The notes beneath the pieces are model-generated. The model had not been told where the DNA came from. It did not search any database and saw only the letters and a program-made list of their open reading frames with translations. From contig CANJGB010000032.1 of assembly GCA_947473805.1 (NCBI GenBank), forward strand, positions 1-36,511: a stretch of 36,511 nt of DNA. Reading direction: 5' to 3'. The translations under genes and the position numbers were made by a program. The DNA comes from Alphaproteobacteria bacterium (GTDB lineage Bacteria; Pseudomonadota; Alphaproteobacteria; Ferrovibrionales; Ferrovibrionaceae). Positions 3,434 through 24,830 of this stretch are shown here, one piece after another. How positions within the stretch are numbered: position 1 is the stretch's first letter; each line of letters opens with the position of its first letter.

Positions 3434-3448
3434 AATCGGGGAGAGATC

Positions 3449-4594: not shown

Positions 4595-4595
4595 G

Positions 4596-5522: not shown

Positions 5523-8500
5523 TCAGCGGAAGTTACGGGCGCTGACGCGGATTTCGGAGTGTGTGCGCGGGTCGGGCCGCGAGCCGGTGCGGGCTTCGTC
5601 GCCACGGCCGGCGGCAAGGGGAAACGGGGTTTCGCGTTCGCCCACGCCAGCCAGCAGCGGCGAGAGGTCGAACAGTTCGCTGGCGAGGACGTGGATCACT
5701 TCCCGCACCTTCTGCACCTTGCCGCGGCAGGCCAGCATGCGGGCGGAAAGGATCAGCGGTTTCTGGCGCTCGAAATGATCGTTCCAGACGACGAGATTGG
5801 CGTGGCCGGTTTCGTCCTCGAGGGTGACGAACAGGATGCCGTTGGCCGAGCCCGGCATCTGGCGCACCAGGACGATGCCGGCAATGGTGATGGAGTCGCC
5901 GTCACGGGCGTCGAGCAGGGCCGCGGTCGGGCGGATGTTCCGCCGGTCGAGTTCGCCGCGCAGGAACGAGACGGGGTGCGCCCGGAGCGACAGCGTGACG
6001 GCGCGGTAATCCTCCACCACCTCGCGCCCGGCCGTCATGGGCAGCAGGGCCACCGTGGGTTCGACAACCATCGCCGTGGCGGCATGATCAAACAGCGGCA
6101 GGGGATTGTCGCGCAGCGCCTTGATCGCCCATAAAGCCTCGCGCCGCGCGAGGCCGAGCGACGGGCGGAAAGCGTCGGCCTCGGCCAGGCGATGCAGCAT
6201 CGCCACCGGCAGGCCGGTGCGCCGCCACATATCCTCGACGGAGGTGAAAGCACCTGCGACGCGCGCCATCACCACGGCTTCCGCATGCTTCTGGGCCAGG
6301 CCCCTGGCCATGCAGAGGCCGAGGCGCACGGCCAGGAACGCCCCATCCGTGGACTCCAGCGTGCAGTCCCAGGCGCTGGCATTCACATCGACCGGGCGCA
6401 CCTCGACGCCATGGTTGCGGGCGTCGCGCACCAGCTGTGCCGGCGCGTAAAATCCCATGGGCTGCGCGTTCAGGATGGCGCAGCAGAACACGTCGGGATG
6501 ATGGCATTTGAGCCAGGACGACGAATAGGCAAGCTGGGCAAAGGAGGCGGCATGGCTTTCGGGGAAGCCATAGGAGCCGAAACCCTCGATCTGCTTGAAG
6601 GTGCGCTCGGCAAAGTCGCGCTCGTAACCGTTCGCCAGCATGCCGTCGATCATCTTGGCTTTGAACTTGCTGACGCCGCCGGTCATCTTGAACGTGGCCA
6701 TGGAGCGCCGCAGCGCATCGGCCTCGTCCGGCGTGAAGCCGGCGCCGACAATGGCCACTTCCATGGCCTGCTCCTGGAACAGCGGCACGCCGAGCGTCTT
6801 GCCGAGGACGTCCTTCATCTCGGGCTTCGGATAACTGGGCTGTTCGATCCCCTCGCGACGCTTGAGATAGGGATGCACCATGCCGCCCTGGATCGGGCCC
6901 GGGCGCACGATGGCGACCTGGATGACCAAATCGTAGAGCGTCTTTGGCCGCAGGCGCGGCAGCATGGACATCTGCGCGCGCGATTCGATCTGGAACACGC
7001 CGACGGTGTCGGCCTTCTGGATCATCGCGTAGGTCCCGGCATCTTCCTGCGGGACGGTGGCCAGCGTCAGGGCCGCTCCCTTGTGCGCGGCCATTAGATC
7101 GAAAGCACGGCGCATGCAGCTGAGCATGCCCAGGCCGAGAATGTCCACCTTCATCATCTTCAGGATGCCGATGTCATCCTTGTCCCATTCGATGACCTGG
7201 CGGTCGGCCATGGCCGCCGGTTCGATGGGAACGAGATTGTGCAATGGCTCGCGGGATAGCACGAAGCCGCCGGGATGCTGGCTGAGATGGCGCGGAAAAC
7301 CGACCAGCTGCCGGGCGATTTTCAGGACAAGCCCCAGGCGGCGGTCGCGGCTATCGAGATTGGCTTCGCGCAGGGCCTTCCCGTCGATGCCGTCCTCGCT
7401 CCAGCCCCAGATCAGGCCGGTTAGAGCCCCCAGCACATCCTCGGGCAGGCCGAAGACGCGGCCAACATCGCGGATCGCACCACGGGCGCGGTAGCGAATC
7501 ACCGTGGCGCAAAGCGCCGCTTTGTCCCGCTGGTAATGTGCGTAGATCCACTGGATGACCTCCTCGCGCCGCTCATGCTCGAAATCAACGTCGATATCGG
7601 GCGGCTCATCTCGCGCACGGCTGAGAAAGCGGGAAAACAGCAGACGGCTCTCGGCAGGGTCGATGGCGGTAATGCCCAGCACGTAGCACACCGCCGAATT
7701 GGCGGCGCTGCCGCGGCCCTGGCACAGGATTTTCTGTGACCGGGCGAAGCGCACGATGTTGTAGACGGTGAGGAAATACGGCGCATAGGCCAGTTCGGCG
7801 ATGAGCGCCAGTTCCTTGCCCACCTGATCGCTGACCCTGGCGGGCGCCCCCGCCGGGTAACGTTGCGCCACGCCTTCCCAAGTCAGTTTTTCCAGCGCCT
7901 GCTGCGGCGTGAGGCCGGGCAACAAATCTTCATCGGGATACTGGTACTTGATTTCGAGCAGGTCGAACTTGCAGCGCGCAACGATTTCCTGCGTACGCTC
8001 CACGGCATCAGGGTAGCGGGCGAACAGGCGCGCCATTTCCGCCGGCGGCTTCAGGTAGCGGTCGGCATGGCGTTCCAGCCGGAAGCCTGATGCGTCGATG
8101 GTGCAGCGTTCGCGGATACAGGTCATCACGTCCTGCAGGATGCGTCGCTCGGGCACATGGTAGAGGACGTCGTTGGTGACGACGGTCGGCACGCGGGCAG
8201 CATGCGCCATGGCATCGAGACGATGCAGGCGGAGCGCGTCGCCCGGGCGGCGGCGGAGCGTCAATGCCAGATAGGCGCGGTCGCCGAATGCGGCATGCAG
8301 GTCGCGCAGGCGCGCAGCCAGCACGTCATCGGGCCGGTCGGGCAGCAGGATGCAGAGCAGCCCCTCGCCCCACTGCACCAGGTCGCCCCAGCCGAGATCG
8401 CACTTTCCCTTGCCGGCACGCCCCTTGCCGATGCTGAGCAGGCGGCACAGACGGGAATAGGCGGCGCGGTCGGTGGGGTAAACCAGGACGGAGAGATCGT

Positions 8501-8711
8501 CGCGCAGGTCGAGACGGCAACCGATGACGAGACGCAGGCCGGTTTCCTCCGCCGCCTTGAGCGCACGCACCATGCCAGCCAGCGTATTGCGGTCGACAAT
8601 ACCCAGCGCCGGGATGCCGAGTTCCTTCGCCGCGTAAAACAGTTCGTCGACGGCAGACGCGCCGCGCAGGAAACTGTACTGGGTGGTGACCTGAAGCTCG
8701 GCGTAGTTCAT
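5523..8711 (-). CDS. dnaE2: Error-prone DNA polymerase DnaE2
   Basis: A 1062-residue C-family polymerase, the catalytic member of the ImuA-ImuB-DnaE2 translesion mutasome. It opens with [17 protein letters not shown], the start of the PHP domain. The palm carries [15 protein letters not shown] near residue 370 with the paired catalytic aspartates. The [24 protein letters not shown] block and a C-terminal OB-fold ([25 protein letters not shown]) follow. The ATG at 8709-8711 overlaps the imuB stop as ATGA, so the frame upstream of it is not used. His residues common at the beginning of the PHP domain are Gln and Ala here. It is the last gene of an SOS-controlled operon. Confidence 0.95.
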
Positions 8712-10243
8712 CCGAAGAAGCCATGGATGAACCAGCGCATGGAGCCGGTGGCGGGCGTCGCGCCATCGCCACGACGGAACAGCCAGAAGCGCCGCCCCTG
8801 TACGTCCTCGACCTGGAAATAATCGCGGATGGCGATGACCTCGTCGCGCGCCTTCCACCATTCGCCATGGACACGCTCGGGCCCATCGGCCTTGCGGATA
8901 TCGAAATGCCTGCCGCGCCAGGTGAACCGTACCGGCGGATGGTCGGGCAACAGGCCGAGGGTCTCCACCGGCTCCGGGTTTTTCAGCAGGCGCGCGGGGC
9001 GCGGCAGATGCGCCGGCCAGGCCTTGCCGCCGGGACGCGCCAGCGGTGCGATGCGGCCCACCGCGCGTTCCGGCACATCGCTTTCCACCGGCGCCAGGCG
9101 ATAGACGCGGCCGGCGCCGAGCCTAGCAACGAGGCGATCCACCAGCGCGGCCATGTCGGGCACCGGGACCTCGCCCCCCAGACGGCCGGCGATCTGCTGC
9201 GCGCCAAGCGGATCGGTGCGGAGCGCCAGCAGAATCATCACCTCGACGCCGAAGCCGGGCTCGACGGTGCCAAGTTTCTCCGCCAGCAGGCGCATGAGGT
9301 GGCGTCCGTCGCGCGTGGGCGCCGCCGTGCCGATGCGGATGAAGCAGTCGACGCCATCGACGCGGCGGAACAGGAGATCGAGCCGGCGCACGCCGCGACC
9401 GGCGGCGCCCAGCTTGCGGCACAAAGTGGCGACAAGGCTTTCCATCGCGGCCGTCAGGCTTTCGGCCGTCAGCAGCGGTTCGACGAAGGCCAGGCGCACC
9501 TGCGGCACATCGGGCGGCAGGAAGGGTTGCAGCGGTTCGGCGGCGCGGCCCAGCGCCTGGTCGAGACGCAGGGCGATGGCGGGGCCGAAGCGCAGGACCA
9601 AAGGGGCACGCGGCAAGGGGTAAAGCGCCGCGATGCGCTCGATGCCGAGCAGGCGCAGGCCATCGAAAATGTTGGATGGCAATCGCAGCGCGGCGACGGG
9701 CAGGTCGGCCAAGGCTTCGCGGGTGCCACCGGGCGGGATGATGGAAAGATCAGCAGCACCATGCCGCGCCACGGCCCAGGCGGCGGCCGGCGTGTCAGCC
9801 ACGGCGGCGCGGGCCGCGAGGCCGAAGCGGCGCACGCGGGCCAGCAGCGTTTCGAGCAGCCGGGTTTCACCGCCATGGAGATGGGCGACACCCGTAATGT
9901 CGAGCAGCAGGCCGTCATCGCCATCGGGCGCGACGACGGGGCTGTAGCGCTGCACCGCCCAGGTCGCCAGGCGTTCCAGCCCCACGCGATCGGCAACAGG
10001 ATCGGCAGGGATGGCCACCAGATCGGCGGCGAGGATACGCGCCTGGGTAAGATCGAGGCCGGGATAAAGACCGCGTGTACGGGCCTGCGCATCGACCGCG
10101 GTGACGACGTCGCGCGCCGCCTCGCGCAGGAAGATGACGACGGGCCGCGCCGCACCCTTAACCGGCGACGCGGAAGTACGTGCTGCCTTCCGCAGCCGGT
10201 CGGTCGGCCAGGTCGGCAGGTAGAGCGAGACGACCCTCGGCAT
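8708..10243 (-). CDS. imuB: ImuB, Y-family polymerase-like mutasome protein
   Basis: A 511-residue protein with Y-family architecture. It begins [16 protein letters not shown], where active Y-family polymerases have an Asp-containing metal motif, so it lacks the catalytic carboxylates as ImuB proteins do. The little-finger region and the conserved ImuB C-terminus ([18 protein letters not shown], ending in WFIHGFFG) are present. In known systems ImuB is the hub that binds the sliding clamp, ImuA and DnaE2. The start is the ATG at 10241-10243, which lies inside the 3' end of imuA (86-base overlap). The stop overlaps the dnaE2 start by 3 bases, indicating coupled translation. Confidence 0.92.
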
Positions 10244-10904
10244 TGCAAGCCTCCATGATCCATGACGCAGGTTCACCGCCACGACAGCGCAACAGGTCAA
10301 CCTGCCAGCGCGCGCGTTCGATGCCGGGGACCGGCAAAAGACCCGATGGCACATGCGCGATGCGCCAGCGGGTGACGGCCGCCGACGGTTCGCCCTCCGC
10401 ACCGGCCTTGCCGCGACGCAGGACGAAACCGGTTACGCCGGTCGAGAGCGCCGCGAGTTGCAGGCGGCGGCTGGCGGTCATGCCCATGCGGCCCACCTCA
10501 CCCACCACGGCGGCAAGGCCGGCGTGACGCAGCCCCTCTTCCATGACGAACAGGACCTCGTCGTCGCTGGCGGCATCCGCATGCAACACGTGATCGGGGG
10601 CGAGGCCCGCCTGTGCCAGAGCCGGGCCGAACACGTCGCCCGCCCGGCCGCACCACAGGACGGGACCGCCGAGGCGCGCGACAATGCCGGCGGCGAACAG
10701 GGTGGCCGGACCGTTGCTGCCGGCCGCATCCTCGCCACCGATCTCGTGCAATGCGGCGCGCGCCAGCCCGCCACCCGGCAGGACATCGTCCAAAGCCGGT
10801 ATGTCGAATGGCAAAGCGGGGGTGCCGGCCGCCACGACGCCACGCGCCAGATGTTCGATCCGGGCACGCAGGTCCGGCGACACGATGCCAGATCGTGCCT
10901 TCAT
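10158..10904 (-). CDS. imuA: ImuA, RecA-like/SulA-like mutasome protein
   Basis: A 248-residue member of the ImuA family, distantly RecA-like, and the first gene of the mutasome operon. Visible features are an N-terminal FDIPALDDVLPGGGLARAALHEI segment, a central strand pattern (FAAGIVARLGGPVLWCGR), RLQLAALSTGVTGFVLR, and a C-terminus with the [11 protein letters not shown] element typical of ImuA. ATG 10902-10904 is preceded by AGGAG on the minus strand. A LexA box lies 24 bases upstream of the start codon. In Myxococcus and mycobacterial work ImuA-like proteins support DnaE2-dependent induced mutagenesis. The assignment rests on these features and on gene order. Confidence 0.9.
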   Translation of the reverse strand: MKARSGIVSPDLRARIEHLARGVVAAGTPALPFDIPALDDVLPGGGLARAALHEIGGEDAAGSNGPATLFAAGIVARLGGPVLWCGRAGDVFGPALAQAGLAPDHVLHADAASDDEVLFVMEEGLRHAGLAAVVGEVGRMGMTASRRLQLAALSTGVTGFVLRRGKAGAEGEPSAAVTRWRIAHVPSGLLPVPGIERARWQVDLLRCRGGEPASWIMEACNAEGRLALPADLADRPAAEGSTYFRVAG

Positions 10905-10992: not shown

Positions 10993-11889
10993 TTATTTGT
11001 ACTTGAGCAGCTTCTCGACGATGGTGCCGAGGTCGTCCCAGCGCTTGCAGTAGTAATAGAGATAGAGGTGCACGATGGTGGCACCGGCTTTCTCCAGCGC
11101 GGGGATCTGCGCCAGCGACGCGTCGAGATCGACGCTACCGTCACTACGCTTCACGGGGATGATGCACCCGCGCACCTGCAAGCTCGACGGGTCGCGACCG
11201 TGACGGCGCATCGAATCCTTGATCGCCTTCACGCCTGACGCCAGCACATCGGGCGCGACGGGCACCGGGCACCACGCATTGCCAAGGCGGCCGATGCGTT
11301 CCACGTTGCGCTCGCTGGCCGGCAGGCCGATCCACACCGGGATGCCGCCGGCCTGCACCGGCAGCGGCAGGGAATAGAAATCCCTGAACGTCACGCGGCG
11401 GCCGGAATAACTGGCCGGCGCACCGCCCCACAAAGCGCGGCAGACCTCGATCTGCTCCTCGAGGTCGGTGTAGCGGCCCTGGAAGGGAATGTTCGACGCG
11501 GTGTATTCCGCCTCCTGCCAGCCGACGCCGAACGCGGCATCGAGGCGGCCCTTGGAGATGACGTCGAGTGTCGCGAGCTGCTTGGCCAGCAGGATGGCCG
11601 GACGCAGCGGCGCGACGAGCACGTTCATCGACAGGCGGATGCGCTGTGTCACCGCCGCGATGGCGGAGAGCGTGGCGATGGGCTCGTAATAGGCGAAGTC
11701 GATGGCGAACGGAAAGTTGGACCCGGTCGTCAGCTTGGCGGCATAGGCGTCCGCATTCATGCCGAGATGGTCGGCGATGGTGACCTGGTCGATGCCGCGC
11801 TCGTCAGCGAGGCGTGCGGCTGCCATCAGGGTGTCGAAGCCGCTGCCCAGTTCGTGGACGCCGGTGAGGTTCAGGGCGATCTGCGTCAT
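10993..11889 (-). CDS. LLM class flavin/F420-dependent oxidoreductase
   Basis: A 298-residue luciferase-like TIM-barrel oxidoreductase. TLDVISKGRLDAAFGVGW at residues 108-125 is the LLM signature, and IPVWIGLPASERNVERIGRLGNAW is the typical strand and phosphate-binding segment of the shorter, F420-like subgroup. The shorter length and the N-terminal HLGMNADAYAAK region set it apart from the other two LLM proteins of the window. Its ATG is 10 bases after the stop of the preceding LLM gene, so it is probably translated from the same transcript. The ribosome site is weak. Flavin type and substrate are not determinable here. Confidence 0.85.
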   Translation of the reverse strand: MTQIALNLTGVHELGSGFDTLMAAARLADERGIDQVTIADHLGMNADAYAAKLTTGSNFPFAIDFAYYEPIATLSAIAAVTQRIRLSMNVLVAPLRPAILLAKQLATLDVISKGRLDAAFGVGWQEAEYTASNIPFQGRYTDLEEQIEVCRALWGGAPASYSGRRVTFRDFYSLPLPVQAGGIPVWIGLPASERNVERIGRLGNAWCPVPVAPDVLASGVKAIKDSMRRHGRDPSSLQVRGCIIPVKRSDGSVDLDASLAQIPALEKAGATIVHLYLYYYCKRWDDLGTIVEKLLKYK

Positions 11890-11899
11890 GACGGACAGA

Positions 11900-13138
11900 T
11901 CAGGCGGACAGCGCGTTCTCGCGGATCACGCCGCGGGCGTCGAACGACTGGCCCTGGGGCGGGCGCAGCTCGCGCAGGCGCGGCATCACCTCGCGCGAGA
12001 ACAGGTCGAGATTGTCAACCGTGTCCTCGTGTGACAGCGTGCCGCCATGGGCCAGCGCGATGAGATGGCCGAAGCCGCCGACATGGTCGTACATGCGCTT
12101 GATCTGCTGGAACACGTCATCCGGCGTGCCGGCATAGGCGAGGCCCGCATCGACGAGATCCTCCATCGACGCCGTGGAGGTATTGATGGGCGTGCCGTCG
12201 GTCTTCTTCACGATGAGATGGTCCTGCGCGATGCGCGCACCGCTGGGGCGCTGCAAAGCCGCGGCATTGGCCTCGGGCGGGAACAGGCCCGGCGGGTTCT
12301 GGAAGGCCGGGTTCACGATGGACGCAGACTCGAGATAGCCCTTCACCTTGGCCAGTTTCGCAAAGCCCTCGGCGCGCGTGCGGCCAATGGCGAGCATGGC
12401 GAGATAACCGAAGCGATCGAGGTTGGGCTCGGGCCGGCCGAGCTCGGCGGTGCGCTTGCGATAGGCCTCGAACATTTTTTTCGCGTTGTCGCGGCTGAAC
12501 ACGGTGGCGATGGTGTGACCGCACTCGGCCACCGGGATGGCCGTCGCGGCGTTGCCGGCGCTGATCCACACATTGGGGCGCGGCTGCTGGTACGGACGCG
12601 GCCAGATGTTCACCTGGCGGTGATGAAAATGCTGGCCTTCCCAGTTGAACGGGCCGTCATGGGTGGTGAGCGCCTTGAGGATGAGGTCGTGCGCTTCCCA
12701 GAAGCGGCTCATGAGATCGACGGGGTTCGAGTTCTGCGCCGAAATCTCGTAGGCGATACCCTTGATGAAACCGATCTCGGTGCGGCCGCGCGACAGCACG
12801 TCGGCATAGGCCAGTTCCTCGGCGATGCGCACCGGGTCGGGCCGGTGGCAGATCGGAATGCCGAGCGTCAGCAGGCGCGCCTTCTTGGTAATGCGCGCCA
12901 GAATCGACAGGTTGTTGAGGCACGAGACACTGAGGCACGTCGCCGTGCTGTGGTGCTCGTTCAACATGATGTCCCAGCCGAGTTCGTCGGCGGCCATGTA
13001 TTCGTCGTAGTAGCGGTTCAGCAGGTCGGCCCCGATCTTGGGATCGAAATGCTTGCTGGGCAGCGTCACGCGCAGCGTGACCGGATCGGCATCCCAGGCC
13101 TGAGGATAGGGCTGCTCGGAAATGAACCATGCGCGCAT
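11900..13138 (-). CDS. LLM class flavin-dependent oxidoreductase
   Basis: A 412-residue luciferase-like monooxygenase. The EHHSTATCLSVSCLNNLS stretch (residues 61-78) and YADVLSRGRTEIGFIKG (111-127) are characteristic of this LLM group, and PNVWISAGN is the later barrel strand. The ATG at 13136-13138 overlaps the stop of the alpha/beta hydrolase by one base (TGATG) and has AAGGAG seven bases upstream. It is preferred to the GTG three bases earlier. The coupling to a hydrolase suggests that an ester or lactone formed by oxygenation is opened next, or the reverse order. That is inference. Confidence 0.87.
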   Translation of the reverse strand: MRAWFISEQPYPQAWDADPVTLRVTLPSKHFDPKIGADLLNRYYDEYMAADELGWDIMLNEHHSTATCLSVSCLNNLSILARITKKARLLTLGIPICHRPDPVRIAEELAYADVLSRGRTEIGFIKGIAYEISAQNSNPVDLMSRFWEAHDLILKALTTHDGPFNWEGQHFHHRQVNIWPRPYQQPRPNVWISAGNAATAIPVAECGHTIATVFSRDNAKKMFEAYRKRTAELGRPEPNLDRFGYLAMLAIGRTRAEGFAKLAKVKGYLESASIVNPAFQNPPGLFPPEANAAALQRPSGARIAQDHLIVKKTDGTPINTSTASMEDLVDAGLAYAGTPDDVFQQIKRMYDHVGGFGHLIALAHGGTLSHEDTVDNLDLFSREVMPRLRELRPPQGQSFDARGVIRENALSA

Positions 13139-13962
13139 CACGCAACTCCTTCCGGTTTGGCCTGCCGCGCCGGCGCGCCGGCGACCTGCCGCACGGCGCG
13201 CGCAAAGGCGGCCGGCTGCTCGACATGGACGAAATGTCCGGCCCCTTCGACCACGGTGAACTCGGCGCCGGGGATGGCGGCGGCATAGCGACGGCCGCCC
13301 TCAGCGCTGATGACCTTGTCCGCGCCGCCCCAGACGACGGCGGTCGGCACCTTGATGCGCGGCAGCCAGCGGCGGATGCGCGGATTGTGCATGTACGGCT
13401 TCCAGCCGAAGAGCGTAATGGATTCACGGGACCGCGTGACGCCGACGACATCGGCCACGGGCCACTTCGAGAAATCGGGGCGGTACTTGTCAGGCTCGGC
13501 GAAATACATGTCGGGCCAGTCATTGGCGCGGATCGTGTAGAAGTCGAAGAAGTCGCGGTCCTCGCGGCCGCCGGGCTTGAAGCCGAGCGGCGCCGCCAGC
13601 GCCAGCGCACTGAACCGTTCCACCGAACGCACCGCCATCTCGACCGCGATCCAGCCGCCGAACGACGCGCCGGCAAGCACCGCGTCCTCGAGGCCAAAGT
13701 GATCCGCCAGTTCGAGGTAGAAATAGGCAAGGTCGTCGATCGACGTCATGTCGGCGGGGAGGTCCGAACCGCCAAAGCCAGGATGCCAGGGCGCGATGAC
13801 GCGGTGGGTCTTCGCCAGTTCGGCAAGATAGTCAGTGCCGTAGACGTCGGGCCCCTCGCCCGCGTGAAGAAACAGCAGTGGACGGCCGCTGCCGCCCTCC
13901 AGTACGTCCAAGCCGATACCGAGGATATCAAGCCGGTGGCGACGAAATTCCACACCGCTCAT
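13138..13962 (-). CDS. Alpha/beta hydrolase
   Basis: A 274-residue alpha/beta-hydrolase fold protein. The nucleophile elbow GASFGG has Ser at about residue 100. The acid is Asp215 in WGGADKV and the base His243 in GAGHF. PLLFLHAGEGP at 28-38 forms the oxyanion region, with HAGEG in place of the common HGxPG. The ATG at 13960-13962 is chosen because the family core starts right after it and the promoter and operator found upstream end before it. The frame stays open further upstream but that stretch overlaps the promoter. It is the first gene of a three-gene unit with two LLM oxidoreductases. Confidence 0.87.
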   Translation of the reverse strand: MSGVEFRRHRLDILGIGLDVLEGGSGRPLLFLHAGEGPDVYGTDYLAELAKTHRVIAPWHPGFGGSDLPADMTSIDDLAYFYLELADHFGLEDAVLAGASFGGWIAVEMAVRSVERFSALALAAPLGFKPGGREDRDFFDFYTIRANDWPDMYFAEPDKYRPDFSKWPVADVVGVTRSRESITLFGWKPYMHNPRIRRWLPRIKVPTAVVWGGADKVISAEGGRRYAAAIPGAEFTVVEGAGHFVHVEQPAAFARAVRQVAGAPARQAKPEGVA

Positions 13963-14035: not shown

Positions 14036-14461
14036 CTACTTTGCCGGCAGGCGCGCGGCATAGAGCGGGCCATCCTCATAGGCGAGGGTCACCAGTTCGA
14101 CCTCGCACCCGAGAGGCGGCGGTTCATCCATGCCGATCAGCCGTGTCGCGATGCGCGGGCCATCGTGCAGATCGATGATGCCGAGGCGAAATGGCAGTTC
14201 AGCGGCAAAATAAAACGCCGCCGCATTGACCACCGACTGCGAATAGAGGATGCCGCGGCCGGAATGGGCCAGCCAGTCGGTGTTCGGCGCCCAGCACTCC
14301 GCGCAGATGCGCTTGGGCGGAAAGCTCATATGGCCACACTTCGGGCACTTCGTGATCATGAAGCGGCCGTCGAGCAGGCCCTGCCAGAAGGTCTGCGTGA
14401 AGGCGGTCACGCGCGGCGGATAGGCGCGTTTGCCGGGCCGGGCGATGATCTCGAGCGTCAC
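14036..14461 (-). CDS. Zn-ribbon/OB-fold (DUF35) protein, partner of the thiolase-like protein
   Basis: A 141-residue DUF35 protein. The N-terminal zinc ribbon has Cys39-x2-Cys42 and Cys53-x2-Cys56 (KCPKCGH and CAECW), followed by an OB-fold (GILYSQSVV, RIATRLIG, CEVELV). The start is GTG at 14459-14461, overlapping the thiolase stop in GTGA. DUF35 proteins pair with thiolase-like proteins. In actinobacterial steroid side-chain degradation the Ltp2-ChsH2 DUF35 pair forms a retro-aldolase, and others support acyl transfer. The genetic coupling here strongly suggests a physical complex with the upstream protein. The chemistry remains to be shown. Confidence 0.87.
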   Translation of the reverse strand: MTLEIIARPGKRAYPPRVTAFTQTFWQGLLDGRFMITKCPKCGHMSFPPKRICAECWAPNTDWLAHSGRGILYSQSVVNAAAFYFAAELPFRLGIIDLHDGPRIATRLIGMDEPPPLGCEVELVTLAYEDGPLYAARLPAK

Positions 14462-15672
14462 CGCCCCGCCTCCAGCACATGGACGCTGGCGCCGCTGAAA
14501 TTGCCGAGTTCGGACATCATGGCGCCGATGGTCGCATTCTTCACCTGGCGTGCACCGGCCTGGCCGCGCAGCTGCTCGACGAGCTCATACACGCCGTAGA
14601 GCGGTGTGAGATAGGCGGGATGGCCGCGCGAAATCGGTGCTCCCGAGGTGTTGATCGGAATGCGGCCGCCGAGCCGGGTTTCACCCTCGACCGCCAGCTG
14701 CGCACCCTTGCCGCGCGGCGCGAAGCCCATGGCCTCGCTGGCCAGTACCTCGATGATGGTGGAACCGGCATAGAGTTCGGCCAGCGACACGTCGGCCGGC
14801 GTGATGCCCGCCTGCGCGAAGGCATCCTGCGCCGAGCGCGCGCACGACGCCATGGCCAGCATGTCGTTCGGCACTTCGCTGATTTCGTGCACGCCCTCGT
14901 GATAGAAGCCGCGACCGGTAACGCGCGCATAGGGCTTGCCAAGACTCTTGGCGATTTCCTCGCGCGCCAGAACCAGGCAGATCGCACCATCGGCGGGAAT
15001 GGCAAGCTCCAGCAGGCCCATGCCATCGACCAACGGCGCCTCGGCCAGGATCTGGTCGCGGGTGAAGGGCGTGCCGCGGATCGACAGCGGGTTCAGCGAA
15101 CCGTGCCAGTGATCCTTCACCGCCACGGCGGCGAGCTGTTCGCGCGTCGCGCCGTATTCGTGGAAGTAGCGCGCCACGTCCATGCCGTACCAGACGCGCG
15201 GCGTGAAGCCGAAGGGGGCATGGAAATCGACATCGCCGTTGGAGCGCATCTGATAGGCGAGATGCGTTGTACGCGGCACCGCGGTCTCGACGCTGATGCC
15301 CAGCGCCAGCGCGACATCGGCGACGCCGGAGGCGACCTGCATGACTGCCTGATCGAAAGCGAGGCCCCCGGTCATGCCGTTGCCGATCACCTCCATGACC
15401 ACACCCGAGCAACGCAGGCGCAGGTAATTGGCCATGAAGGTCGCGAAGTAGCGCTGCTTGGTATAGGTGCGCGGATGCGTAAATATGAGGGAATCGATAT
15501 CGGACTTGCCGATACCGGCCTCGGCCACCGCGCGAACCACAACGTCAGCCAGGATCTCGTGTTCGACGGTCTGGATCTCGGCTTCGTCCGGCGTCTGGAA
15601 GCGGCTGCATGGCAGGGCCGCCTGCCCGATCACGCAGACGTTCCTGATGCCACTCCGGTCCGAACGATCCAT
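14458..15672 (-). CDS. Thiolase-like protein without the usual catalytic cysteines (SCP2-thiolase/Ltp-like)
   Basis: A 404-residue thiolase-fold protein. The N-terminal nucleophile Cys position of true thiolases falls in GNGMTGG (residues 97-103), which has no Cys. The C-terminal GHP with His351 is kept, but the later Cys-x-Gly region reads GAMMSELGN, again without Cys. It is therefore unlikely to be a standard acyl transferase and resembles the lipid-transfer/aldolase branch that works with DUF35 proteins, such as Ltp2. ELYAGSTIIEVLASEAMGF is the conserved C-domain segment. It starts 16 bp after the binding-protein gene and overlaps the DUF35 gene by four bases. The gene order suggests cleavage of a CoA-bound intermediate. 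Confidence 0.85.
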   Translation of the reverse strand: MDRSDRSGIRNVCVIGQAALPCSRFQTPDEAEIQTVEHEILADVVVRAVAEAGIGKSDIDSLIFTHPRTYTKQRYFATFMANYLRLRCSGVVMEVIGNGMTGGLAFDQAVMQVASGVADVALALGISVETAVPRTTHLAYQMRSNGDVDFHAPFGFTPRVWYGMDVARYFHEYGATREQLAAVAVKDHWHGSLNPLSIRGTPFTRDQILAEAPLVDGMGLLELAIPADGAICLVLAREEIAKSLGKPYARVTGRGFYHEGVHEISEVPNDMLAMASCARSAQDAFAQAGITPADVSLAELYAGSTIIEVLASEAMGFAPRGKGAQLAVEGETRLGGRIPINTSGAPISRGHPAYLTPLYGVYELVEQLRGQAGARQVKNATIGAMMSELGNFSGASVHVLEAGR

Positions 15673-15688
15673 TACGCGACCCTGCAGA

Positions 15689-16651
15689 TCAAGGCTTCAG
15701 CAGGCCCTTGTCGGCGAGGCCTTTCCACTGCGCGGCCTCGTCCTTGATCAACTTGGCGAATTCGGCAGGGCTGCTGGGATTCGGTTCGTAGCCCAGCTGG
15801 CGGATTTTTGCCTGCACATCAGGCGAGGCCAGAGCCTTCTGCATCGCGCCGTTCAGTTTGGTGATTGCCGCGGCCGGCGTGCCGACCGGCGCGGCGAGGC
15901 CGGTCCATATGGTGGAAACAAAATCCGGCAGGGTAGCTGAGGCAACCGGCACACCTGGCAGGCCGGCATAGGGCTTGAAACCCGTGAGCGCGAGCGGGCG
16001 CAGTTTGCCTTCGTCGATATACTGCTTGAAGGGACCGATCGAGCTGATGCCGTACTGCACCTGGTTGGCAAGCAGAGCCTGGATCGCCGGCGCGGCGCCG
16101 CCATAGCGCACCAGTTCAGTCTCGATGCCGGCCTTGTAGTTGAGGAACTGGTTGGTGATCAGATCCGTGCCGCCCTGGGCGCCGAAGTTCAGCTTGCCGG
16201 GATTCTTCTTCGCGTATTCGATAAATTCCGGAAAGGTCTTAACCGGCACTTCCGAATTCACGGCGATGACCAGATCGCCGATGCCAATGATGCTGATCGG
16301 CGCGAACTTCTCCGCCAGGTCCTTCTGCACGGCCGTATTGATATACGGAAGCGTGGTAACGGTGTTGGTGGTCAGCATGAGCGTGTAGCCGTCGGCATCC
16401 GACCGCACCGCGAACTCATAACCGATCTGGCCGCTGGCGCCCGGCTTGTTGTCGACGATGATGGGCTGCCCCAGCGCCTGGGACATCTGGTCGCCGATCA
16501 ACCGCGCCACCGCGTCAGTCGGGCCGCCAGCCGCCAGCGCGACGACGATGCGAATTGGCTTCTCGGGATACTCGGCGCGCGCCTGTGGGGCCGACAGCGC
16601 AACACCGGCGGCGATCACGGCGGTACTGAAGAACGCATATGGACGCATCAT
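15689..16651 (-). CDS. Tripartite tricarboxylate transporter (Bug/TctC) periplasmic binding protein
   Basis: A 320-residue Bug family solute receptor. It has a signal peptide of about 26 residues (MMRPYAFFSTAVIAAGVALS, cleavage after ARA) followed by YPEKPIRIVVALAAGGPTDAVAR, the hallmark N-terminus of TctC-type proteins. It also has VDNKPGASGQIG and the C-terminal LGYEPNPSSPAEFAKLIKDE. Of the clustered ATGs I choose 16649-16651 because GGGAG then lies at normal distance, and ATG 16655-16657 is too close to it. TctA and TctB membrane partners are not nearby, which is common for this family. The position directly ahead of the thiolase-like gene suggests it binds the pathway substrate, probably a carboxylate. 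Confidence 0.9.
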   Translation of the reverse strand: MMRPYAFFSTAVIAAGVALSAPQARAEYPEKPIRIVVALAAGGPTDAVARLIGDQMSQALGQPIIVDNKPGASGQIGYEFAVRSDADGYTLMLTTNTVTTLPYINTAVQKDLAEKFAPISIIGIGDLVIAVNSEVPVKTFPEFIEYAKKNPGKLNFGAQGGTDLITNQFLNYKAGIETELVRYGGAAPAIQALLANQVQYGISSIGPFKQYIDEGKLRPLALTGFKPYAGLPGVPVASATLPDFVSTIWTGLAAPVGTPAAAITKLNGAMQKALASPDVQAKIRQLGYEPNPSSPAEFAKLIKDEAAQWKGLADKGLLKP

Positions 16652-16721
16652 CTTCATCTCCCTAGCGGCATTGAAATGACCCCTTTGCGGGGATTTCGAC
16701 GGATCAATTGCCTGCGCCATG

Positions 16722-16809: not shown

Positions 16810-17613
16810 TTACTCCCAGTACGGTATGCCATCGAGGGGCAGAATGACGCTGTCGGGGTCGAGATGGGCGAACGGCGAGAAGTGCAGGCGCGGCTCGGCG
16901 GCAACCTGATCGCGAAACTCACCCACCAAGTCCAGCCAGGCCTGTGCAGGGTCGCCCACAGACGGCATTTCGATAACCAGTGCCGCAAAGGCAGGTTCAT
17001 CCACGCCACCTATAGCGAAAGCTATAGCCGGCGGGCGGCGGCCGGTGACGTCGGCCTTGGACGCGAAGCCGCGCCGCCGGATCGTTGCGGCGAGTTGGGC
17101 CAGCCCCTCGGATTTTCGTGCCCAGTGGCGGATTGTGAAAGCAGACAGGCGATCCAGGTCGGCATCTGGCAAGGTCGCAATGATGGCCAGTCCGGCGCGG
17201 GTTGCGTCCATCGGCAGGGTGACCCCGAGCGGGGCCCGGTTTACGACGGCGCTGGCGCCCTCGATCGCGGCGATGCGAACGACATGCCAGCCGACACGCA
17301 CCCAGAGCGAAGCGGTCTGCCCGGTGGCCGTAGCCAGACGGCGCAAATGCGGCATGGCGGCATTGCGCACGGGAAAGCCAGCGAAGAAGGAGAAGAACAG
17401 ACGACGGGTCAGCGGCCCCAGAACGTAGCGTGACGAATTGCCATCGGTCGCGATCATGTCGCTGCGCTCAAGCGAAGCCAGGCCGCGATGGGCCGAACTG
17501 ACCGGCATGCCGAGCCTGAGGCTGACCTCGGCGACGCCGACCGGCGCCGCGCTGCGACCGACGAGATCGAGAATGTCGAAAATCCGCCGCGACGACGGGC
17601 TGATATCGCTCAT
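16810..17613 (-). CDS. IclR-family transcriptional regulator (second of a coupled pair)
   Basis: A 267-residue IclR protein. The N-terminal winged helix (residues 7-60) reads RRIFDILDLVGRSAAPVGVAEV and then LGMPVSSAHRGLASLER. The GAF-like effector domain runs from about 80 to 250, with the PMDATRAGLAIIATLP and IRRRGFASKADV segments of the family. Its ATG overlaps the stop of the preceding IclR gene (ATGA), so the two are translated together. It lies upstream of the Bug/thiolase/DUF35 genes on the same strand with a terminator between. Regulation of these genes is likely but not proven. Confidence 0.88.
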   Translation of the reverse strand: MSDISPSSRRIFDILDLVGRSAAPVGVAEVSLRLGMPVSSAHRGLASLERSDMIATDGNSSRYVLGPLTRRLFFSFFAGFPVRNAAMPHLRRLATATGQTASLWVRVGWHVVRIAAIEGASAVVNRAPLGVTLPMDATRAGLAIIATLPDADLDRLSAFTIRHWARKSEGLAQLAATIRRRGFASKADVTGRRPPAIAFAIGGVDEPAFAALVIEMPSVGDPAQAWLDLVGEFRDQVAAEPRLHFSPFAHLDPDSVILPLDGIPYWE

Positions 17614-18464
17614 GCGATTTCCATGTCGTCATCGACATCGACCATCGAGCTCGCCGGGATCAGCCGGGTGCGGTCGTTCAGGTCGTGCATCAGCTGCGTC
17701 ATGCGCGGCATCAGATCGCGCACCCGCGCCTCGGTAAAATGCTCGCGCGGCCCGCCGACGGTCAGCGCACCGTGCGGCAGGCCCTCGGCATCGAGAATGG
17801 GGAAGGCGATGTAGTCGGCATCGAAATAGGCATAGTCCTGGAAGCTGCGCGCGAAACCGCGCTGGCGGATGCCGGCGATCTCCTCCCAAAGCAGTGCAGG
17901 ATCGGTAATGGTATGTTCGGTGAACCGCTGCAGCGGCGACGCGTGGGCAATGTAGGTTTCGATCTGTTCGTCCGGCAGGAAGGCAAGGATCACGCGGGCG
18001 GACGGCGTGACATGGAGCGGGATTTTACCACCCCAGGAAATCCGGCTGACGCGGACGCCGCGCCCTTCGATGCCGTCGATGGTGATGAAATGGCGGCCCA
18101 TGGCGACGCCGAACGACACGCTTTCGCCGGTCAACGCCTGCATCGCCTGCATGGTGGCGAACACCAGGCCCCTGATATCGGCGTCCGGCGCATGAGGATT
18201 GCGGAACTCCAGCACCCGGAAGCCGAGATGGTAGCGCGAGCCGCTGGCATCGCGAATCAGATAGCCCTGTTCGTTCAGCACGCCCAGCGCCCGGAAGGCC
18301 ATGTTTTTGCTGATGCCGAGTTGCCGCGCCACCTCGGTCACGCCGTGGCTGGTCGTGCCGCGGGCAAACAGTTCAAGCACGCGCAGCATGCGTACGACGG
18401 ATATGTTGACCGCCGAACCTGACCCGGTTTTTCCGGCTTCATCGCGCGGCAGGGCTGCGGGCAT
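17610..18464 (-). CDS. IclR-family transcriptional regulator (first of a coupled pair)
   Basis: A 284-residue IclR protein. The helix-turn-helix covers VVRMLRVLELFARGTTSHGV and then VARQLGISKNMAFRALGVL (about residues 23-63). The effector domain includes LHVTPSARVILAFLP and IRQRGFARSFQDYAYFDADY. An N-terminal extension of about 20 residues and an acidic tail (VDVDDDMEIA) are present. It is transcribed divergently from the SDR gene, with a 197-bp gap. Two IclR regulators coupled head-to-tail is unusual and suggests that they act as a pair, possibly as mixed dimers. That is speculation. Confidence 0.88.
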   Translation of the reverse strand: MPAALPRDEAGKTGSGSAVNISVVRMLRVLELFARGTTSHGVTEVARQLGISKNMAFRALGVLNEQGYLIRDASGSRYHLGFRVLEFRNPHAPDADIRGLVFATMQAMQALTGESVSFGVAMGRHFITIDGIEGRGVRVSRISWGGKIPLHVTPSARVILAFLPDEQIETYIAHASPLQRFTEHTITDPALLWEEIAGIRQRGFARSFQDYAYFDADYIAFPILDAEGLPHGALTVGGPREHFTEARVRDLMPRMTQLMHDLNDRTRLIPASSMVDVDDDMEIA

Positions 18465-20465: not shown

Positions 20466-20591
20466 GCAGCAGATTACGCCGCGGTCGCCCAGGCGTCTCG
20501 CCCCGGTGGCTATGTCCCACACTCTTGGGCTATTTTGGCGTCGAAACGGACCGGACCTGCCGGCCCGAACGCTGTTCCGTCAGGACGAGAG

Positions 20592-23303
20592 ATGGTGAAC
20601 GCCGCCGAACGAGCGCTGGGTGCCGCGCCTGAAAAGCCGCGCGGCTCCGGGCGGGCCCTGTTCTGGCGGATGGTGTGGCTGTACTGCCTGGGCTCAGGCA
20701 CCGCCGTGGTCATCACCTGTTTCCTGGTTCTGCTGGGCCTGGAATTCACGACCCGGCAGTGGATGCTGTTCTTCGTGATCGTCCCGCCCTGCGTGGCGCT
20801 GTACACCCTGCCCGACATTGTCATCATCCGCCGGCATATCCGGCCGGTCGTCGTGGCGCTGAACAGCCTGGACCGCGACCTGCTGCCGCCTGATTACATC
20901 GTCTCGAAGGCGCTGGTCCGGGCATTGAACCTGCCGTTCCTGTCGGCCGCCCGCGTCACCTGCCTGCACGGCCCGGCCGCAACGGTGGCGCTGTGCGCCA
21001 TGATGCTGGCCGACAACGCCCTGTTCGACGCCGGCTTCGTGCGCTGGCAGATCGTCGCCTTCGCCGCGACGGTCATGTTCTTCGCCTCGCCCACCCACGC
21101 GATCTTCGAGTATTTCGGCGTCAGCCGCACCATGGAGCCGATCGTCAAGCGGCTGACCCGCGCCGCGGCCGGCAGCGACGCGCTGCTGCCCGAGAAGCAG
21201 CAGGGCCTGCATTCGATCCGCCTGCGCACCAAGCTGCTGTACCTGGCCATCGCGGTCGCATCGCTGCCGCTGGTCTTCTTCGCCTTCTCGGTGATTTTCA
21301 AGGTCGACCGGTTGCTGCTGTCGCTCGGCGAGACGGCCAGCTTGGACGAGCTGATGCCGCTCTACCTGTGGATCGGCGGCGTCGTCATCGTCTGCGTGTT
21401 CGGCTCGCTGGTCATGTCGATCCTCACCGCGAACGAGGTCTCGCGTTCGGCGGCACGCCTGACCCAGGCGATGCGCCAGGTCGAGAGCGGCCGGCTGGAC
21501 GGCGTCGACCTGGAAGTCATCAGTACGGATGAGTATGCCGACCTGTTCCGCGGCTTCAACCTGATGGTCGACGCGCTGCGCGAGGAACAACGCATTCTGG
21601 AGGTCAGCCACGATCTGGCCGGCGAACTGCAACTGGATGTGCTGATCGCGCGCATCATGACGACGACGACCGAATTGCTGGGCGCCGAGCGTTCGACCCT
21701 GTTCGTTTACGACCCGAAAACAGACGAGCTGTTTTCCCGTTACGCCGCCGGCATCGACACCAAGGAACTGCGCATTCCCGCACACCACGGCATTGCGGGC
21801 GCGGTCTTCACGACCGGTCGGCTGGAGAACATCGCCGACCCTTATGCCGATCCGCGCTTCAATTCCGATGTCGATCGCCAGACCGGCTTCCGCACGCGCA
21901 GCATCCTGTGCATGCCGATCGCGAACAAGGCGGGCGTGCGCATCGGCGTGACCCAGGTGCTGAACAAGCGCGGCGGCGCCTTCAAGGCGAAGGACGAGGC
22001 GCGCCTCAGGGCATTTTCGGCGCAGATCGCGGTGTGCCTGGAAAACGCCCAGCTGTTCGACGACGTTCTGAACATGAAGAACTACAACGAGAGCATCCTG
22101 AAGAGCACGTCGAACGGCATCATTACGCTTGATGTGAGCGGCCGCATCGTGACGTCAAATGACGCCGCCCTGGCCCTGCTGCACGCGCAGCGCGAGGGCA
22201 TGATCGGCCAGCCGGCCAACGACGTGTTCACCGGGCCGAACGCCTGGATCGCCGACAGCCTGCACAACACGGAGCGCACCGGCGAAACGGACATCGCGGT
22301 CGATGCCCAGATCACCCGCACCGATGGCGAACCCGCCGCGGTCAACCTGACCGCGATGCCGCTGATCGACATTGCCGAACAGCGCATCGGCTCGATGCTG
22401 GTGCTGGAAGACATCACCTCGGAAAAGCGCGTGCGCTCGACCATGGCGCGCTACATGAGCAAGGAGGTCGCCGACCAGCTTCTCGCCGGCGGCGAAGCGG
22501 AACTGGGCGGCAAGGACCAGAAGGTTTCAATCCTTTTCTCGGACGTACGCGGCTTCACCACGATATCGGAAGCCCTGGGCGCGCGGGAAACCGTGTCGAT
22601 GCTGAACGAGTATTTCACCGAAATGGTCGACGTGATCTTCCAGCACGGCGGCATCCTGGACAAGTACATCGGCGACGCGATCATGGCGCTGTTTGGCGCG
22701 CCGTTCAAAGGACCGCAGGATGCCGACAACGCGCTGGCGGTCGCGAACCAGATGATGGTGCGCCTGGCCGTGCTGAACCAGTCACGCGTGGCGCTGGGCA
22801 AGAAGGCCATCGACATCGGTGTCGGCGTGAGCACGGGCGACGTGGTGGTCGGCAATATCGGCTCGGCCAAGCGGATGGAATACACCGTGATCGGTGACAA
22901 CGTGAATCTCGCCTCGCGCCTGGAGGGCGCCAACAAGTATTACGGCTCGAAGATCCTGCTATCGGAATACACGGTGCGCGACCTGAAGCGCCCGGGCCTG
23001 CTGCGTGAAGTGGACCTGATGCGGGTCAAGGGCAAGGATCACCCGGTCGCGGTGTATGAATCGCTGGGCTATCGCGAGGCGGAGCTCTCGCACGGCCTGG
23101 GCGCGACGCTCGATGCCTATGGCCGCGGCCTTGCCGCCTATCGCGCCGGCAACTGGCGCGAGGCGATGACGGCGTTCGAGGCCGCGCTGCGGACTGGCCC
23201 GGGCGACGGGCCATCGACCATGTACCTGGAGCGCTGCCGGATCTACGAGAAGACGCCGCCGCCGAAAAATTGGGACGGCGTCTGGGTCCTCACCGACAAG
23301 TAG
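20592..23303 (+). CDS. Membrane adenylate cyclase with GAF and PAS domains (class III)
   Basis: A 903-residue protein. Six hydrophobic helices (about 23-50, 57-79, 120-143, 152-172, 214-236, 254-278) are followed by a HAMP-like linker to about 330, a GAF domain (about 350-490), a PAS domain (about 497-610) and a class III cyclase domain (about 640-825). Cyclase residues are complete: metal Asp651 in FSDVRGFT and Asp695 in GDAIMALFG, Lys691 and Thr765 as adenine-selecting residues, Asn772 and Arg776 in NLASRLEG. It is therefore predicted to be active and ATP-specific. A short TPR-like tail ends the protein. ATG 20592 has AGGACGAGAG upstream. It lacks linkage to the catabolic genes and is convergent with the FadL gene. 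Confidence 0.92.
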   Translation: MVNAAERALGAAPEKPRGSGRALFWRMVWLYCLGSGTAVVITCFLVLLGLEFTTRQWMLFFVIVPPCVALYTLPDIVIIRRHIRPVVVALNSLDRDLLPPDYIVSKALVRALNLPFLSAARVTCLHGPAATVALCAMMLADNALFDAGFVRWQIVAFAATVMFFASPTHAIFEYFGVSRTMEPIVKRLTRAAAGSDALLPEKQQGLHSIRLRTKLLYLAIAVASLPLVFFAFSVIFKVDRLLLSLGETASLDELMPLYLWIGGVVIVCVFGSLVMSILTANEVSRSAARLTQAMRQVESGRLDGVDLEVISTDEYADLFRGFNLMVDALREEQRILEVSHDLAGELQLDVLIARIMTTTTELLGAERSTLFVYDPKTDELFSRYAAGIDTKELRIPAHHGIAGAVFTTGRLENIADPYADPRFNSDVDRQTGFRTRSILCMPIANKAGVRIGVTQVLNKRGGAFKAKDEARLRAFSAQIAVCLENAQLFDDVLNMKNYNESILKSTSNGIITLDVSGRIVTSNDAALALLHAQREGMIGQPANDVFTGPNAWIADSLHNTERTGETDIAVDAQITRTDGEPAAVNLTAMPLIDIAEQRIGSMLVLEDITSEKRVRSTMARYMSKEVADQLLAGGEAELGGKDQKVSILFSDVRGFTTISEALGARETVSMLNEYFTEMVDVIFQHGGILDKYIGDAIMALFGAPFKGPQDADNALAVANQMMVRLAVLNQSRVALGKKAIDIGVGVSTGDVVVGNIGSAKRMEYTVIGDNVNLASRLEGANKYYGSKILLSEYTVRDLKRPGLLREVDLMRVKGKDHPVAVYESLGYREAELSHGLGATLDAYGRGLAAYRAGNWREAMTAFEAALRTGPGDGPSTMYLERCRIYEKTPPPKNWDGVWVLTDK

Positions 23304-23309
23304 GCCGGA

Positions 23310-24647
23310 TCAGAACTTCCAGCGCAGGCCCAAGCTGACGATGTCGACGTCGTTCTCGAACTTCCCGTTCATCACCGAGTTCGTGCCGCTGACACGGGCC
23401 GTCGGGCCCTCGCGGAAGAAGATGTGCTGGTAGCCGACATCGATGGTGGCCGAGGGCGTCGCCTGCCAGCCAAGACCGGTAGCCACGACGTAGCGATCCG
23501 AATCCGGGATGCCCGGACCACGGTTGCGCGTCGGGATCGGGCTTTCGTCATAGGCAAGGCCGCCGCGCAGCGTCAACGCATCGCTCCAGCGGTAGGTGGC
23601 GCCGGCGGCCAACCGGAACACGTTGTGCCAATCGGTCAGCAGCAGGTTGGTGGGCGTTTGCGGATTGTCGGCGTCGATGCGCAATTCGTCGAACCGGTTC
23701 CAGCGGGTCCAGGTGACATCGCCCATCACCGCCCAGCGCGCGTTCAGTTCGTGATAGGCGCTGACGCTGGCGGTTTCCGGAATCGTCAGTTCGGTTTGGG
23801 CGCCACCGTCGGTGAAGCCGGCGGGGGAACCGGCGGCGACGAGGAACGCGCGCGCATTCGCGGGCACGTCGAAATGGGAATCGCCGTTGAACTTGTACTC
23901 GATCTTCGAGCGGTAGTGGGCGCCCACGCGGGTCGTCGGCGAGAACTCGTAGAGGAAGCCTATATTGAACCCGGCACCGAAATCGGTTGAAGTGAACTCC
24001 CCCGCACCGTCGTTCTTGCCGGGCGCCAGATTGAACCCAGCGGCGCAGGCGGCCGCGCCAAACGCGGAAGAGGCGCAGACGGAGCCGAAGTCGACCGCCT
24101 GAAGCAGCTTGGCGTCGGCATACCCGATGTCCACTCCCCCGCCGACCGACCACCCGCCGCCCAGCCTCACCGCCACCGAGGGATTGAAGTTGATGGTCTT
24201 GAGGTTGGTCGTCACCTCGCTGTAGCGGCCGACGAAGTCGGGCTTGTAATCGGTGACGAGGCCGTAAGGCGCGTTGATGCCAAGCCCGAAGCTGAGCCCC
24301 GGCGACTGCTGCCAAACGAAATAGAGGTTTGGGATCGCGGCGGCATAGGCACCGTTGCCGCCATTGCCACCGGAGACAGGCGTGCCATCGAAGAGCACCG
24401 AACCGCGGTCCTCGTACCTGATTTGCGGCAGCAGAAAATGAGCGCCGGCCACCGCTTCAGTGCCGAGGCGCACCATGCCGGCAGGATTCGACCAGACCGT
24501 GCTGGCATCCTGGGCGCCCGCCGCGCCCCCGGCGTTCGCCACCCCGGCACCGCTCGGGCTTTCCTGGCCGACGCCGTACCCGGCCGCATGCACCGCGCCG
24601 GCCTGAGCCACGGCCAGGCCGGCCAAAACCGCAAATATCACCTTCAC
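23310..24647 (-). CDS. OmpP1/FadL family outer-membrane transporter
   Basis: A 445-residue beta-barrel protein. Signal peptide of 21 residues (VIFAVLAGLAVAQAGAVHA, then AGYG). The mature N-terminus, AGAQDASTVWSNPAGM, is the FadL hatch-region signature with NPAG. Aromatic and Gly-rich alternating strands continue to a final RWKF with the terminal Phe needed for barrel insertion. The start is GTG at 24645-24647. FadL proteins take up long-chain fatty acids and other hydrophobic or aromatic compounds, which fits the degradative neighbourhood. It is divergent from the xanthine dehydrogenase-family gene with a 183-bp gap that contains no gene and no feature I can support. Confidence 0.92.
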   Translation of the reverse strand: MKVIFAVLAGLAVAQAGAVHAAGYGVGQESPSGAGVANAGGAAGAQDASTVWSNPAGMVRLGTEAVAGAHFLLPQIRYEDRGSVLFDGTPVSGGNGGNGAYAAAIPNLYFVWQQSPGLSFGLGINAPYGLVTDYKPDFVGRYSEVTTNLKTINFNPSVAVRLGGGWSVGGGVDIGYADAKLLQAVDFGSVCASSAFGAAACAAGFNLAPGKNDGAGEFTSTDFGAGFNIGFLYEFSPTTRVGAHYRSKIEYKFNGDSHFDVPANARAFLVAAGSPAGFTDGGAQTELTIPETASVSAYHELNARWAVMGDVTWTRWNRFDELRIDADNPQTPTNLLLTDWHNVFRLAAGATYRWSDALTLRGGLAYDESPIPTRNRGPGIPDSDRYVVATGLGWQATPSATIDVGYQHIFFREGPTARVSGTNSVMNGKFENDVDIVSLGLRWKF

Positions 24648-24830
24648 AATAACAGTGCCCCCACCCGCCCCGTAATATCGGGATCAACATGCGCAGTTTT
24701 TCACGACGGGCGGGGAAAGGAAATCGGCTTTCTTGTGCCGGGGGGCGCAGCGGCAAAACGGACGGTTGCTTATTCGCCGGCAGGACAAGAGACTGGCAAC
24801 ACTCGTTCCTCCCAAGCCGAATGCCTGAAC

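Follow-up and report, generated by a model that had tools for sequence, protein, structure and literature searches.

Does a thiolase-fold protein without catalytic cysteines, encoded beside a DUF35 protein, cleave carbon-carbon bonds as a retro-aldolase, and does it belong with the steroid side-chain aldolases? The question arises from a 36,511-nucleotide stretch of alphaproteobacterial DNA (hereafter the window; contig CANJGB010000032.1), for which a gene pair of the Ltp2-ChsH2 retro-aldolase type had been predicted in a non-actinobacterial setting with LLM oxygenases. We examined the genes, active-site residues, phylogeny and gene context of this pair and of its relatives.

The gene pair and its family

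The thiolase-fold protein (THL) is encoded at 14458 to 15672 on the minus strand (404 aa, ATG start), and its DUF35 partner, with a ChsH2-type zinc ribbon and OB fold, at 14036 to 14461 on the same strand (141 aa, GTG start). Pfam families above cut-off were Thiolase_C_1 (1.9e-37) and Thiolase_N for THL, and zf-ChsH2 and OB_ChsH2_C for the partner. Together with the GTGA shared by the two reading frames, these results confirm both genes and the four-base overlap of the original prediction. Among solved structures, THL best matched thiolases and the Ltp2 aldolase, and the partner best matched the DUF35 chains of Sal-Shy, archaeal thiolase/HMG-CoA synthase, Ltp2 and benzoylsuccinyl-CoA thiolase. 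The zinc-ribbon ligands of the partner (C-x2-C-x10-C-x2-C; 14294 to 14347, minus strand) follow the C4 pattern of ChsH2, unlike the C3H1 pattern of Shy (PMC12329534).

Relatives at 49 to 59 percent identity occur in whole genomes, on plasmids and on 80 named contigs, mostly from Burkholderiales and Alphaproteobacteria, with some from Nocardia, Rhodococcus and Arthrobacter. The contig search returned no loci with a single-protein query and 80 with a family alignment as query. The family is sparse, being found in 6/385 sampled genomes of the class and 2/398 of the phylum, figures that both include the genome of the window itself. The counts per locus given here and below refer to loci picked for their thiolase-like protein, which are not independent of relatedness: a DUF35 gene lies directly 3' of the THL gene on the same strand in 90/90 family loci where it was sought, a 4-bp overlap is possible in 80/90, and the four-cysteine motif is kept in 77/90, as it is in the window. 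THL and the DUF35 protein probably form a complex. The motif was not found in the other 13 partners (L030, L046, L050, L054, L074, L078, L083, L091 and others), several of them actinobacterial, and the zinc may be dispensable. Searches of the literature revealed no member of the THL clade that has been characterised.

Active site, fold and phylogenetic placement

Active-site columns were assigned from a multiple alignment with Ltp2, Sal, IpfD, and SCP2-type and classical thiolases, in which the numbering of the Ltp2 sequence agreed exactly with the published Tyr294 and Tyr344. Gly99 of G97-N98-G99 (15376 to 15384, minus strand, as are all residues below) occupies the column of the nucleophilic cysteine, which bears out the predicted loss of that residue; the histidine of GHP is retained, also as predicted, as His351 (14620 to 14622). 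The latter column holds the thiolase histidine, Ltp2 Tyr344 and Sal Gln352. Tyr301 of Y301-A-G-S304 (14761 to 14772) falls in the column of Ltp2 Tyr294 and Sal Tyr302, which is Asn in classical and His in SCP2-type thiolases, and E388-L-G-N391 (14500 to 14511) adjoins the column that holds the second cysteine of thiolases. GNG, Tyr301, His351 and E388-L-G-N are identical in all 48 aligned family members, and this invariance, with the constant presence of a DUF35 neighbour and the frequent 4-bp overlap, shows that neither the residue columns nor the gene pairing is due to chance. The C-terminal thiolase cysteine aligns with Ser387 or at most one residue away. Its predicted loss is real in the window protein, yet the position varies across the 48 members (A, G, C, T, N or S), so the loss says little. 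A replacement of this cysteine by E388 is a possibility, with the alignment placing the cysteine one residue off, on Ser387.

In the known aldolases, the essential base is Ltp2 Tyr294 or Sal Tyr302 and the acid is Ltp2 Tyr344 or Sal Cys304, and Ltp2 Tyr344 is equivalent to Sal Gln352 (PMC12329534). The window protein has the aldolase tyrosine and lacks Ltp2 His296 and Tyr344 as well as Sal Cys304, whose column is occupied by Gly303. An alignment of the active-site tyrosines, originally suggested as a check, thus held for Tyr301 and failed for Tyr344, whose column contains His351. This assignment follows from the multiple alignment and the published equivalence to Gln352; the pairing of Tyr344 with Tyr354 (A-Y-L) in a phmmer alignment was discarded since Tyr354 is not invariant (40/48). 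We infer that His351 could serve as the catalytic acid. Positions 303 and 304 are P-C (within Y-A-P-C-T) in 47/47 relatives and G-S in the window protein only, a difference that needs several DNA substitutions and thus cannot be put down to one sequencing error. Members with P-C include those of plasmid pA82 of Achromobacter xylosoxidans A8 and of Paraburkholderia xenovorans LB400. As to a cysteine elsewhere in the active site, all 47 relatives carry Cys304 beside the tyrosine; the window protein has Ser304, and its description as lacking catalytic cysteines stands. Position 392 is likewise Phe in the window protein and Tyr in 47/47 relatives. No closer homologue with YAGST was found among 18 genomes of the order.

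The AlphaFold model of THL (mean pLDDT 84, pTM 0.88) gave Z scores of 40.8 to 48.9 against SCP2-type thiolases and their relatives: 48 to 49 for archaeal thiolases, 43.5 for Sal-Shy and 43.0 for Ltp2-DUF35, compared with about 34 for classical thiolases. The model thus matches Ltp2-DUF35, with thiolases scoring higher (up to 48.9). Similarity in fold and profile is slightly greater to thiolases than to aldolases, and the fold of the model does not separate the two activities.

In phylogenetic trees, for which several reference sequences were partial and taken from printed alignments and IpfD was read from plasmid pIBU218, the THL family formed one clade (100/99 to 100/100) outside the clade of Ltp2, Sal, IpfD and the Sphaerobacter protein 4u4e (100/99). 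Constraining the family with the Ltp2 rows was rejected (AU p = 6e-7). Rooting on classical thiolases made the aldolase clade the sister of the THL family (92/83); of the four outgroup sequences in that analysis, L132 began with an uncertain reading frame and was omitted from a later tree. With the active-site columns removed, the family branched before both thiolases and aldolases (81/67). Topologies placing it with thiolases were rejected neither with nor without these columns (AU p 0.094 and 0.40). Since the sisterhood with aldolases vanishes without the active-site columns, the cysteine may have been lost either once or twice. A grouping of the family with thiolases in an unrooted tree was set aside, as three clades without a root are uninformative on sisterhood.

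Gene context and proposed function

All genes around the pair lie on the minus strand. Upstream of THL, in the same direction, is a TctC-type periplasmic binding protein of a tripartite tricarboxylate transporter (15689 to 16720), preceded by two IclR-family regulators (16810 to 17613, and a PcaR/PcaU-like one at 17610 to 18464). Downstream of the DUF35 gene is an alpha/beta hydrolase (13138 to 13962), whose reading frame opens at 14079; translation more probably begins at the ATG at 13962, which would avoid an overlap with the DUF35 gene. The hydrolase gene overlaps by 4 bp with an LLM flavin-dependent oxygenase (11900 to 13141), which is followed by a second LLM class oxidoreductase (10993 to 11889; TIGR03619 over cut-off). 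This order is atypical for the family. The operon contains no CoA ligase, acyl-CoA dehydrogenase or MaoC gene, and a search of the window's own genome found no close copy of this module (best acyl-CoA dehydrogenase 33 percent, MaoC 38 percent, CoA ligase 41 percent). The LLM oxygenases predicted to accompany the pair are indeed present, and they are peculiar to this locus; homologues are rare in family loci, and one locus, L080, has distant homologues of the hydrolase and the first LLM enzyme side by side.

Elsewhere in the window, the plus strand at 2339 to 5519 carries an LLM oxygenase gene and, after it, a pair of acyl-CoA dehydrogenase genes, all downstream of a GntR regulator. One dehydrogenase is full and the other matches mainly the C-terminal domain; they resemble the paired dehydrogenases of steroid degraders and could be a source of a dehydrogenation step. 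Between the two LLM clusters, at 5523 to 10904 on the minus strand, stands a block with the arrangement of an ImuA-ImuB-DnaE2 mutagenesis cassette, comprising an ImuA-like protein, an ImuB-like Y-family polymerase (8708 to 10402) and a 1112-aa reading frame. At 20535 to 23303 the plus strand encodes a large protein that combines HAMP, GAF and PAS domains with an adenylate/guanylate cyclase domain, and at 23310 to 27173 a FadL/TodX-type outer-membrane transporter adjoins, on divergent strands, a molybdopterin-binding large subunit of xanthine-dehydrogenase type. The 3.3-Mb genome has ten Thiolase_C_1 places (L001 to L010), of which L006 and L007 fall in the clade on the Ltp2 side with a Tyr/Tyr pattern, and L002 and L003 have Tyr/His.

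In the relatives, the pair has a different and recurrent setting. On annotated plasmids it is flanked by ADP-forming CoA ligase, MaoC, acyl-CoA dehydrogenase, CaiB transferase, ETF, and TctC or TRAP transport genes. Of 91 loci, 64 carry an acyl-CoA dehydrogenase, 53 MaoC and 30 the CoA ligase, and two CaiB queries matched in 62 and 69. Acyl-CoA dehydrogenase and MaoC occur together in 37/66 loci of at least 18 kb, 36 of which also have a CoA ligase or CoA-transferase. Classical 3-hydroxyacyl-CoA dehydrogenase (HAD), for which two proteins from the genome of the window served as queries, was found in 0/91 loci. SDR-type enzymes, which are able to function as hydroxyacyl-CoA dehydrogenases, are present in 11 to 18 loci, and a query of that specific type matched in 11. 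By analogy with steroid side-chain aldolysis, this is the gene set expected for a route that leads to a beta-hydroxyacyl-CoA and does not oxidise it. A desaturase-like flavoprotein in 43/91 loci, with strong matches, below cut-off, to 4-oxocyclohex-2-enecarboxylate dehydrogenase (ChcC2) and 3-ketosteroid dehydrogenases, hints at cyclic ketones. Several clusters (L034, L035, L040, L051, L053, L068 and L087) encode a further Cys-less thiolase-like protein besides the family member, sometimes accompanied by a separate DUF35 protein; those that were placed in a tree belong to the clade on the Ltp2 side.

On the basis of residues and gene context, we propose that THL and its DUF35 partner act as a retro-aldolase on a beta-hydroxyacyl-CoA, with a probability of roughly 60 percent. 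Tyr301 would take the proton from the beta-hydroxyl group, upon which the bond between C-alpha and C-beta would break, and the resulting acyl-CoA enolate would be protonated, probably by His351 or an adjacent residue, to yield a carbonyl compound and acetyl- or propionyl-CoA. Thiolytic cleavage via an acyl-enzyme is not expected, given that there is no nucleophilic cysteine. In most relatives, the substrate would be supplied by CoA activation, acyl-CoA dehydrogenase and MaoC hydratase, a module that would suit tertiary beta-hydroxyacyl-CoAs, which are not oxidisable to a ketone. In the window, the LLM oxygenases and the alpha/beta hydrolase would process the released ketone; our guess is that the former oxygenate it and the latter opens the ester. 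Several observations weigh against the proposal: the slightly greater likeness to thiolases in fold and profile, the loss of the aldolase sister grouping once active-site columns are removed, the missing acids of Ltp2 and Sal, the SDR-type enzymes in some loci and, for the window itself, the replaced P-C pair and a genome with no close match to the acyl-CoA dehydrogenase of the module.

Some features of the window protein instead suggest decay or repurposing (P303G, C304S, Y392F), with the family being catalytic and this copy binding CoA esters or having changed its function. The G-S pair and Phe392, each against 47/47 relatives, the long end branch (0.52) and the operon devoid of the CoA ligase, dehydrogenase and MaoC module are in keeping with such a change. 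Even so, we consider this explanation unlikely. The gene has an uninterrupted frame, its product preserves Gly99, Tyr301, His351 and E388-L-G-N391 along with many further invariant positions, and the DUF35 partner retains its C4 ribbon, all of which suggests continued selection.

A synthetic role, in which an acyl-CoA is joined to a ketone or aldehyde by aldol reaction or acyl transfer, would have precedent in the DUF35-partnered thiolase-fold acyltransferases PhlABC and MucABC, which match the THL model. PhlC-type chemistry, however, uses a nucleophilic cysteine that THL does not have, and the importers (TctC, TRAP) speak for catabolism, as do acid activation and the oxygenases, which makes synthesis very unlikely. 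That the protein is still a thiolase employing another residue as nucleophile we regard as extremely improbable: its nearest profile and fold matches are thiolases, but glycine fills the cysteine column of every member, and the window protein does not even have the Cys304 of its relatives. A decarboxylase of malonyl-CoA-like esters, similar to the low-activity TbSLP and to Cys-less ketosynthases, is quite unlikely. Cys-less thiolase-fold proteins can decarboxylate, TbSLP slowly (PMC12329534), and CoA-transferases like those for dicarboxylates flank many loci; yet Sal does not decarboxylate malonyl-CoA (PMC12329534), and the recurring acyl-CoA dehydrogenase and MaoC would yield a hydroxyacyl-CoA rather than a malonyl-CoA.

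The retro-aldolase reading would give wider meaning to a family found in more than 90 bacterial loci, some plasmid-borne and annotated as thiolase, which is probably not a thiolase. Its clusters would represent a general, non-steroid route for acids that form a non-oxidisable beta-hydroxyacyl-CoA, with a bearing on alicyclic and naphthenic acid breakdown, and the thiolase fold would have reached aldolase chemistry with a further residue set. More tentatively, and with considerable doubt, the family may constitute a third type of CoA-ester retro-aldolase built on the thiolase fold, with a catalytic set of Tyr301, His351 and, in most members, Cys304, a cysteine loss separate from that of the Ltp2/Sal/IpfD lineage, and a role in releasing cyclic ketones in alicyclic acid breakdown. 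A lyase for cyclohexylacetate breakdown in Arthrobacter is known biochemically (EC 4.1.3.35) and to our knowledge has no assigned gene; literature searches found no paper on a cyclohexylacetyl-CoA lyase gene. If the family is such a third type, it could supply this gene.

Comparison with known systems

The novelty originally seen in a non-actinobacterial setting did not survive comparison, as Sal-Shy and Ltp2 are known from Comamonas (PMC12329534, PMC12502768) and IpfDE from sphingomonads (PMC9195938), and Ltp2 also occurs on a Vibrio plasmid. On that plasmid (pYa108 of Vibrio alfacsensis, L128), an Ltp2 homologue is accompanied by MaoC, an OB-fold protein and several acyl-CoA dehydrogenases, so that a side-chain module of steroid type is carried there on a plasmid. 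For the pair studied here, no link to steroids was found.

SCP2-type and archaeal thiolases (PDB 7yvy, 6esq and 6hsj) share with THL the fold, the GHP histidine and the closest profile, and some are paired with DUF35; they differ in keeping the nucleophilic cysteine and the His-Asp motif. The Sphaerobacter thermophilus thiolase-like protein (PDB 4u4e) has Gly for Cys and the same Tyr/His pair as THL, but carries a YDSF motif, belongs to the Ltp2/Sal/IpfD clade and has no assigned function. IpfD-IpfE of Rhizorhabdus wittichii (plasmid pIBU218) is also an alphaproteobacterial pair of a Cys-less thiolase fold and DUF35, in which IpfD shares the Gly and Tyr columns with THL; it cleaves C-C bonds of CoA esters, as is proposed here for THL, and the IpfD gene is required for growth on ibuprofen (PMC9195938). 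IpfD differs in its Ltp2/Sal clade and in having Tyr in the His351 column (YDAF, FY). Another lipid-transfer/OB-fold pair on this plasmid (L130, 938 to 2502) is of Ltp2 type, with YDHF and EAY.

The bile-acid aldolase Sal-Shy of Comamonas testosteroni (PDB 9myr) is likewise proteobacterial, with Gly in the cysteine column, base Tyr302 and a DUF35 partner. Sal uses Cys304, which lies in a YDCY motif, and the zinc finger, of C3H1 type, is fused to a hydratase, whereas the window has no such cysteine, a C4 ribbon and a separate DUF35 gene. Ltp2-ChsH2 of Thermomonospora curvata (PDB 6ok1) agrees with the window pair in the thiolase fold, Gly in the Cys column, Tyr294 for Tyr301, a C4 zinc-ribbon DUF35, and acyl-CoA dehydrogenase and MaoC neighbours in related loci. 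Unlike the window protein, with YAGS (YAPC in the family) and His351, Ltp2 has YDHF and the acid Tyr344 and lies in a different clade, and in actinobacteria DUF35 is part of ChsH2. The predicted Ltp2-ChsH2 pattern is therefore upheld in the glycine, the base tyrosine, the C4 ribbon and a context in relatives without HAD, and an identity with Ltp2 is contradicted by the constrained tree, the His351 column, the YAGS motif and the separate DUF35 gene. The window THL belongs to neither Ltp2 nor Sal and probably works like one of them.
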